Part shown: piece by piece, positions 31,841 through 33,772 of the stretch
How the letters are laid out: each line of letters begins with the position of its first letter
Position numbering within the stretch: position 1 is the first letter of the stretch
From: Bacteroidales bacterium
GTDB lineage: Bacteria; Bacteroidota; Bacteroidia; Bacteroidales; Dysgonomonadaceae
DNA: 33,772 nucleotides
NCBI GenBank assembly: GCA_012728155.1
Contig: JAAYFR010000099.1
Span: 1 to 33,772, forward strand
Direction: 5' to 3'
The notes under the pieces: model-generated
The model's input: only the letters and a program-made list of their open reading frames with translations
Database searches by the model: none
What the model was told of the DNA's origin: nothing
Translations under genes and position numbers: made by a program

Positions 31841-31877
31841 AAAAAAGTCCCACCGTGTAATCGGCAGGACTTTTTAT
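31841..31877 (-). terminator. Intrinsic terminator in the pheA leader (attenuator hairpin)
   Basis: The minus strand reads AUAAAAAGUCCUGCCGAUUACACGGUGGGACUUUUUU. Stem AAAAAGUCC/GGACUUUUU plus CCG/CGG around a U-G internal loop, ending in a 6-U run about 20 nt before the pheA ATG. Confidence 0.85.
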
Positions 31878-31933
31878 TATTTTATGATATGACTTTTTTA
31901 ATTTCTTCTCATTTTGCATATAAAATCCTGCCT

Positions 31934-32243: not shown

Positions 32244-33772
32244 ATGTTCAAAAATCATCCTAAAGGGTTGCTCGCCGCCTCACTGGCGAATATGGGAGAG
32301 CGTTTTGGTTTTTATACCGTGATGGCTATCCTTTCACTTTTCTTAATGACAAAGTTCGGCTTAAATGAGACAAGCACTGGAATTATCTACTCCATCTTTT
32401 ATGCTTCCATCTATCTGCTGGCGTTGGTAGGTGGTTTGCTTGCCGACAAAACTCGAAATTATAAAGGCATCATATTGATCGGTCTGCTTTTGATGACATT
32501 GGGATATGTGATTATCTCGATACCTACTGCAACGCCTGTGCCACAGGATAAATTCGGCATTTTGCTGGCTTTAAGTTGTTTTGGACTTCTTACCATTGCA
32601 TTTGGAAATGGGATGTTCAAAGGTAATCTGCAAGCACTGGTCGGCCAGATGTATGATAATCCGCAGTACGAAAAAATGCGCGATTCCGGGTTCCAGTTGT
32701 TCTATATGTTTATTAATGTGGGTGCCATCTTCGCTCCTTTTCTTGCTGTTGGCGTAAGAAATTGGTGGGTAGAGAAGAATGGTTATCTATATAATGCCGA
32801 TCTCCCTTCCCTTGCCCACCAATATCTGGGCAACACCATTACTCCTGAAGGAACGGCAAGGTTACAAAATCTGGCATCGGAAGCTGGATTTGCCGGTACC
32901 GACATTGCCACTTTCAGCAGTGGTTATTTGAATGTCTTCACTACCGGATTTCATTACGCTTTTGCGATAGCTATTGTGGCGATGATTATCTCATTGCTCA
33001 TCTATGTTTTCAATAAGAATGGATTCCCCGATCCAGCTGGCAAGTACATTGACAAGAGTGGCAATGCTGCTGTGGAAGAGATGGATATCAAAGAGGTAAA
33101 GCAGCGTCTTTATGCTCTGTTTGCCGTTTTTGCGGTCGTTATTTTCTTCTGGTTCTCCTTCCATCAAAATGGATTGACCCTTACCTATTTTGCCAAGGAC
33201 TATACCGATTTGAACCAGATAAAGGTCAACTTGGGATTTGTCACTTTACAGGGAGCCGAAATATTCCAGTCGATCAACCCTTTCTTTGTGGTGTTCCTTA
33301 CTCCTATTATCGTGGGATTTTTCGGATGGCTCAGGAGCAAAGGGAAAGAACCGTCCACACCCCGCAAGATAGCGATTGGTATGGGTATCGCGGCAATGGC
33401 TTATGTGGTCATGGCAATAGGGTCGATCGGACTTCCCCTCAAGTCGGAAGTGGATGCGATGGGTGGATTGGCCGATTCGGCACGTGTAACTCCCTGGCTA
33501 TTGATTGGCACCTATTTTATCCTTACCGTAGCCGAGCTGTTTATCAGTCCGCTGGGTATCTCATTTGTGTCGAAAGTGGATCCTCCCAAATTTCAGGGTA
33601 TCATGCAGGGTGCCTGGTTAGGAGCTACAGCAGTGGGTAACAGCCTATTGTTTATCGGCGCCATCTTCTACACCAATATGTCGATGGTTACCACATGGAT
33701 GCTATTCGTAACGGCATGTCTCATCTCCATGTTCACCATGCTGGCAATGATCAAATGGCTGGAAAGGGTTGC
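32244..33772 (+). CDS. POT (proton-dependent oligopeptide transporter) family MFS protein, truncated by the window end
   Basis: The frame is open from the ATG at 32244 to the window end: MFKNHPKGLLAASLANMGERFGFYTVMAILSLFLMTKFGLNETSTGIIYSIFYASIYLLALVGGLLADK... It is not in the ORF track, presumably because no stop codon lies within the window. Confidence 0.9.
   Translation, partial: MFKNHPKGLLAASLANMGERFGFYTVMAILSLFLMTKFGLNETSTGIIYSIFYASIYLLALVGGLLADKTRNYKGIILIGLLLMTLGYVIISIPTATPVPQDKFGILLALSCFGLLTIAFGNGMFKGNLQALVGQMYDNPQYEKMRDSGFQLFYMFINVGAIFAPFLAVGVRNWWVEKNGYLYNADLPSLAHQYLGNTITPEGTARLQNLASEAGFAGTDIATFSSGYLNVFTTGFHYAFAIAIVAMIISLLIYVFNKNGFPDPAGKYIDKSGNAAVEEMDIKEVKQRLYALFAVFAVVIFFWFSFHQNGLTLTYFAKDYTDLNQIKVNLGFVTLQGAEIFQSINPFFVVFLTPIIVGFFGWLRSKGKEPSTPRKIAIGMGIAAMAYVVMAIGSIGLPLKSEVDAMGGLADSARVTPWLLIGTYFILTVAELFISPLGISFVSKVDPPKFQGIMQGAWLGATAVGNSLLFIGAIFYTNMSMVTTWMLFVTACLISMFTMLAMIKWLERV

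Follow-up and report, generated by a model that had tools for sequence, protein, structure and literature searches.

A candidate ribosome-controlled attenuator with alternating phenylalanine and tyrosine codons upstream of pheA operons in Bacteroidia

Introduction

Leader-peptide attenuation has mainly been studied in proteobacteria. In the Bacteroidales bacterium studied here, a short, phenylalanine- and tyrosine-rich open reading frame upstream of pheA raises the question whether such a mechanism controls the downstream operon and, if so, which amino acids it senses. Short ORFs resembling leader peptides occur in a map of Bacteroides thetaiotaomicron (PMC7366714), and a transcriptome study of Flavobacterium psychrophilum reported, in its main text, indications that amino acid operons are attenuated by leader peptides, as well as a conserved, unexplained element without Rfam hit 5' of pheA in this species and other Flavobacteriaceae (PMC9723704). 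The DNA analyzed (hereafter, the window) comprises 33,772 nucleotides of contig JAAYFR010000099.1 (assembly GCA_012728155.1). An original prediction, made from these letters alone, had proposed a phenylalanine-controlled pheA attenuator in which one RNA segment can pair with either of two partners.

Results

Leader peptide and operon

The following features, all on the minus strand, were assigned to the leader region and the operon.

32069-32040, minus strand: putative Bacteroidetes-type promoter (TTTG at 32069-32066, 18 nt, TACTTTTG at 32047-32040)
31990-31934, minus strand: leader peptide ORF MIGSIFAFAFWFYFYFSR, with stop codon TAA at 31936-31934
31957-31943, minus strand: control codons 12-16, Phe-Tyr-Phe-Tyr-Phe (TTT TAC TTT TAC TTT), near-invariant in the family
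31821-30952, minus strand: pheA, prephenate dehydratase (Pfam PDT, 1.7e-55; NCBIfam PRK11898, 1.6e-60, slightly below cut-off)
30859-29708, minus strand: class I/II aminotransferase (Pfam Aminotran_1_2, 5.7e-57)
29703-28564, minus strand: DAHP synthase-chorismate mutase fusion (Pfam DAHP_synth_1 and CM_2)
28473-27700, minus strand: tyrA, prephenate dehydrogenase (Pfam PDH_N, 1.9e-7, above cut-off)

Since pheA, the aminotransferase, the DAHP synthase-chorismate mutase fusion and tyrA all lie downstream of the leader, the operon makes both Phe and Tyr, and its entry enzyme is common to all aromatic amino acids. The closest named relatives of the window PheA were found in Proteiniphilum species (Dysgonomonadaceae; 86-90% identity). 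No gene is located 5' of the leader on the same strand, and the neighboring ORF, at 32244, is on the opposite strand. This divergent gene (32244-33770, plus strand), which adjoins the leader, encodes an oligopeptide:H+ symporter (TIGR00924); peptide uptake and Phe/Tyr synthesis may have a regulatory region in common here.

PheA was present in 91 of the 101 genomes of the family, and 90 upstream regions were taken for comparison. Leaders of the same shape were detected in 88 of these regions; the other two were the region of L032, which ends at a contig end, and that of L047 (genome G041), whose pheA has no leader. Family leaders started with ATG or GTG, stopped at TAA, TAG or TGA and, in most cases, had FYFYF-(S/K)-(R/K)-stop as their C-terminal end. 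In the 84 leaders that were aligned, codons 12-16 were conserved as Phe (82/84), Tyr (83/84), Phe (83/84), Tyr (81/84) and Phe (83/84). A TAnnTTTG motif, mostly 27-29 nt 5' of the leader start, was found in 84 of 85 family members and in 8 after shuffling, the commonest spacing to the -33 TTTG being 18 nt. The stretch from the predicted start site to the leader ATG also contains a short, perfectly paired hairpin, GATATGAT-TTACGT-GTCATATC (32028-32007, minus strand), and a similar one is visible in the closest relatives only (e.g., L002 and L003).

Antiterminator and terminator share one segment

Folding and comparison of relatives led to the assignment of the following RNA elements.

31976-31969, minus strand: segment 1, UUUUGCAU, leader codons 5-8; pairs with 31919-31912
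31957-31931, minus strand: candidate inner stem of the 1:2 hairpin, UUUUACUU (31957-31950) with AGGU.AAGG (31939-31931)
31932-31920, minus strand: segment 2, GGCAGGAUUUUAU, 5' arm of the antiterminator; pairs with segment 3
31919-31912, minus strand: segment 1', AUGCAAAA, directly adjoining segment 2; partner of segment 1
31875-31841, minus strand: intrinsic terminator (3:4), 14-bp stem and U tract; from folding and covariation
31874-31863, minus strand: segment 3, AAAAGUCCUGCC, common to antiterminator and terminator; from folding and covariation

Re-reading of the coordinates placed GGCAGGATTTTAT at 31932-31920 (minus strand), beginning one base past the leader stop, and ATAAAAAGTCCTGCC at 31877-31863 (minus strand). 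The former contains GGCAGGAUUUU(AU), whose pairing partner is AAAAGUCCUGCC, which also serves as the 5' arm of the terminator upstream of pheA. Both RNAfold and the 84 relatives gave this pairing as continuous, which made the 2-nt bulge originally drawn in it unnecessary; the U31925-G31870 pair, a wobble in the window, is U-A in most species. The terminator stem alone (31875-31842) had a folding energy of -19.3 kcal/mol and is accompanied by a T tract at 31846-31841. Because positions 31875-31863 are common to both pairings, antiterminator and terminator are mutually exclusive: folding from the leader stop onward yielded the antiterminator, and folding without segment 2 yielded the 14-bp terminator. 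The core of the original prediction, 2:3 versus 3:4 pairing through one shared segment, was thus borne out in its strings as well as its coordinates. A promoter/terminator scan of the window did not call the terminator of the pheA leader.

When the spacer was shuffled 1000 times with its dinucleotides preserved, the observed helix run or folding energy was never reached. Across the 84 aligned family leaders, 94.5% of the antiterminator cells were paired and 5 of the 12 pairs showed two-sided changes, and the helix scored above 500 of 500 shuffles and every slide; for the terminator, 93.2% of cells were paired. APC mutual information was swamped by relatedness, and compensations were counted on a tree instead. 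In one parsimony reconstruction on one FastTree PheA tree with 89 leaders, two-sided compensatory changes numbered 13 in the antiterminator and 21 in the terminator. Covariation, proposed as one of the checks on the GGCAGGA:UCCUGCC pairing, came out in its favor.

An alternative partner for segment 1

The original prediction had also suggested a 1:2 pairing, UUUGCUUU:AAGGCAGG. This pairing can be drawn in the window, but failed comparison, with 69.6% of cells paired versus 74.8% in a control slid by one column, and with a single compensation. The pairing UUUUGCAU:AUGCAAAA (1:1') is supported as the probable segment-1 pairing in its place. Two-sided changes occurred in 8 of its 11 column pairs in the 84 leaders, and 13 compensatory events were reconstructed on the PheA tree (89 leaders); an example is the change from GCAUAU/AUAUGC to GCCUAU/AUAGGC in L026. 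In the window, the 1:1' hairpin encloses segment 2. The inner stem, in which UUUUACUU of the control codons faces AGGU.AAGG over the stop codon, was paired in 98.5% of cells in 84 species, but its changes were all one-sided and of wobble type, so that this stem is no more than suggestive. The combined structure of 1:1', inner stem and terminator scored above its controls in the 84 leaders.

Predicted effect of ribosome position

The antiterminator of attenuators is generally held to form before segment 4. The effect of ribosome position was modeled in register, with segment 4 not yet transcribed and with an assumed ribosome footprint that extends 12 nt past the first base of the A-site codon. 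In 84 of 85 species, these in silico foldings gave a probability of 2:3 pairing of approximately 1 at whichever control codon the ribosome was placed; with the ribosome at the leader stop, this probability was 0 in all 85. A ribosome at the last Phe codon of the window leader left exactly GGCAGGA free. This stall and stop geometry, present in 84-85 of 85 species, and the strong covariation agree with the ribosome-controlled 2:3 versus 3:4 attenuator that had been predicted. Without a ribosome, also before segment 4, the probability of 2:3 was 0 in the window and above 0.5 in 40 of 85 species, so that termination in the absence of translation is not general.

Two further models, whose predictions conflict with those above, were set aside for the model without segment 4. 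For full-length RNA at equilibrium, the terminator outcompeted 2:3 in 63 of 85 species even when the ribosome stood on the last Phe codon; since equilibrium folding favors the terminator, the mechanism requires 2:3 to form before segment 4. When pairing across the ribosome was permitted, a ribosome at codons 13-16 was enclosed by 1:1', and the model predicted termination.

Occurrence across Bacteroidia

Beyond the family, a leader of this type preceded pheA in all 40 Bacteroidales loci of other families and, in further orders of the class Bacteroidia, in 19 of 20 loci. In the sole leaderless class member outside the family among these, G420 (L148/L311), pheA lies directly 3' of another ORF. 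A terminator was detected in nearly all leader loci of Bacteroidia outside the family. The predicted antiterminator probability exceeded 0.5 in 55 of the 60 non-family loci, a moderately discriminating value given that shuffled spacers averaged 0.51. Outside Bacteroidia, 2 of 11 assessable loci had such a leader, L136 (G358) and L152 (G479), each with a terminator; inheritance and transfer are both conceivable origins of these two.

Tyr codons in relation to operon content

The phenylalanine switch originally proposed was an incomplete description of the leader, since the block reads F-Y-F-Y-F before an operon for both Phe and Tyr, and Tyr is gone only before a lone pheA. Downstream genes were identified at about 120 loci, of which nearly all came from other families; the leader finder scored F and Y equally and was thus not biased to either residue. 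Tyr occurred within the densest nine residues of all 96 leaders that precede pheA together with at least one of the genes for the aminotransferase, DAHP synthase and prephenate dehydrogenase. Conversely, a lone pheA was preceded by a clear leader in five cases, all without Tyr in the control block: FFFFFAFFF (G124 and G316, one genus), FFTHFFFFF (G115) and FFFFFF (G134 and G321, one genus). Because two pairs of these genomes each belong to one genus, these leaders represent three clear lineages rather than five independent events. A sixth leader before a lone pheA, FVFGFLFCF of G191, is doubtful.

In the three Phe-only lineages (G124/G316, G115 and G134), the tyrosine genes are located elsewhere and have Tyr-containing leaders and terminators of their own. 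The separated tyrosine operons of G124 and G115 are preceded by the leaders MIKNISVFAYFYYYFYFSKK (similar in G316 and G231) and MNNTFGYYAFYYYFFYNN, respectively, with segment 2 and a terminator visible in both, while MAPVHTYYAWSFFFFYF precedes prephenate dehydrogenase in G134. G200 and G191 likewise have mixed leaders in front of their separated operons. These split-operon leaders argue most strongly for a role of the window's Tyr codons as control codons, and dual sensing of Phe and Tyr by the window leader appears likely on this comparison of sequences. Somewhat less firmly than for attenuation itself, we favor the view that a Bacteroidia-wide leader integrates Phe and Tyr in one alternating block, which becomes Phe-only or Tyr-rich when the operon splits.

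Discussion

Proposed mechanism and alternatives

Very probably, the four-gene Phe and Tyr operon is governed by a trp/phe-type transcription attenuator under ribosome control. Its sequence, conserved pairings, register and operon content are established here; stalling, termination and a response to Tyr as well as to Phe are what we infer. When charged tRNA-Phe or tRNA-Tyr is scarce, the leading ribosome would stall in the FYFYF block with its front edge just short of 31932, leaving segment 2 free. Free segment 2 would then capture newly made segment 3, no terminator would form and the operon would be transcribed. With both tRNAs charged, a ribosome at the stop codon would cover segment 2, 3:4 would form and transcription would be expected to end near 31841. 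If the leader is left untranslated, 1:1' may lock segment 2 in a hairpin and cause termination, at least in the Proteiniphilum group.

It is possible, if rather unlikely, that the attenuator senses Phe alone and that its Tyr codons serve as spacers or to slow the ribosome down, as reported for the Corynebacterium glutamicum aroR-aroF system. There, a Phe-Tyr-Phe leader, AroR, controls a DAHP synthase operon by ribosome stalling and is described as answering Phe limitation and not Tyr availability (Neshat et al., 2014, as reported in PMC11802643). The AroR case shows that Tyr codons alone are no proof of Tyr sensing, and Phe indeed always occupies the final position of the block, which is the best placed. 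The FYFYF block of the window is longer than that of AroR and comes from an unrelated phylum. Tyr codons 13 and 15, however, are conserved as well as the Phe codons, and Tyr is missing exactly before lone pheA genes and present with tyrA or shared genes in several lineages. A different arrangement of the read-through state, in which 1:1' and 2:3 coexist as an H-type pseudoknot rather than as alternatives, seems improbable. The RNA order 1, 2, 1', 3, with zero gap between 2 and 1', makes the lower part of 2:3 compatible with 1:1' in sequence, and both helices covary; however, a stalled ribosome would occupy the loop and the upper antiterminator stem has bases in common with 1'.

Attenuation by a translating ribosome is also to be weighed against readings in which translation plays no part. 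A riboswitch, T-box or protein-binding leader overlapping a short ORF by chance could account for a highly conserved 5' structure before a biosynthetic operon, and the Flavobacterium pheA 5' element, for which the main text of its report names no ligand (PMC9723704), is similar. Such an element is nevertheless very improbable here, given that the conserved portion is in-frame coding sequence, that its Phe/Tyr content tracks operon content and that no Rfam family, T-box and riboswitch families included, matched at gathering cut-offs. An accidental complementarity next to a mere terminator of an upstream transcript, to which the strong intergenic hairpin with its U tract would be suited, can almost certainly be dismissed: no same-strand gene lies upstream, no shuffle in 1000 equaled the helix, and the covariation of segments 2 and 3, with its 13 compensations, has already refuted it.

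Relation to known systems

The Rfam scan of the window yielded no family at the gathering cut-off and no T-box match of any kind; sub-threshold matches such as AbsR25 (33.4 versus 47) were treated as chance. Phe_leader (RF01859), which represents pheL-pheA of Escherichia coli and other proteobacteria, scored 25.0 bits, below its gathering cut-off of 55. The window leader shares with pheL-pheA a Phe-rich leader peptide, exclusive terminator and antiterminator structures and a position upstream of pheA. It differs in its mixed Phe/Tyr composition, its phylum and its segment sequences, as well as in an operon that adds the aminotransferase, DAHP synthase/chorismate mutase and tyrA. Bacteroid-trp (RF01692), with 22.3 bits against a gathering cut-off of 49, is likewise a peptide-leader cis element of Bacteroidetes, but serves Trp genes (Weinberg et al., 2010, PMC2864571) and has other amino acids and another operon. 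The Flavobacteriaceae pheA element concerns the same gene and class, and is probably homologous or analogous to the window leader; a leader sequence, segment pairing, covariation and a role of Tyr are all absent from the main text of its report (PMC9723704).

In the open-licence literature, no account was found of the segments of this leader or of a Phe/Tyr rule. Work by Lopatovskaya and co-workers from 2010, cited in PMC4833913, may predict some of these leaders. The mechanism is textbook attenuation, while the leader, which occurs across the class Bacteroidia, is new to Rfam. It represents a well-supported, Bacteroidia-wide attenuator outside every Rfam model, for which a single leader pattern suffices as a basis for automatic annotation. 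Genomes with split operons provide natural experiments on whether one leader reads two charged tRNAs and whether codon content tracks the pathway branch, and the leaders are candidate Phe/Tyr-responsive parts for engineering of Bacteroidales.

Leader loss, duplication and operon variants

As in L047, no recognizable leader was found before pheA in L326 (G200) and in L359-L363 (genus g39), several of which have a lone pheA; loss of the leader after operon splitting is possible. L084 (G086) and L085 (G094) are second copies of pheA, with Phe/Tyr leaders of their own, in genomes that already have one. An extended operon, in which pheA and DAHP synthase/chorismate mutase are followed by three genes and tyrA, was observed in L260, L280, L285, L287 and L307, all of which kept Phe/Tyr leaders. 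In L260, the three additional genes encode 3-dehydroquinate synthase, a type I dehydroquinase and chorismate synthase.
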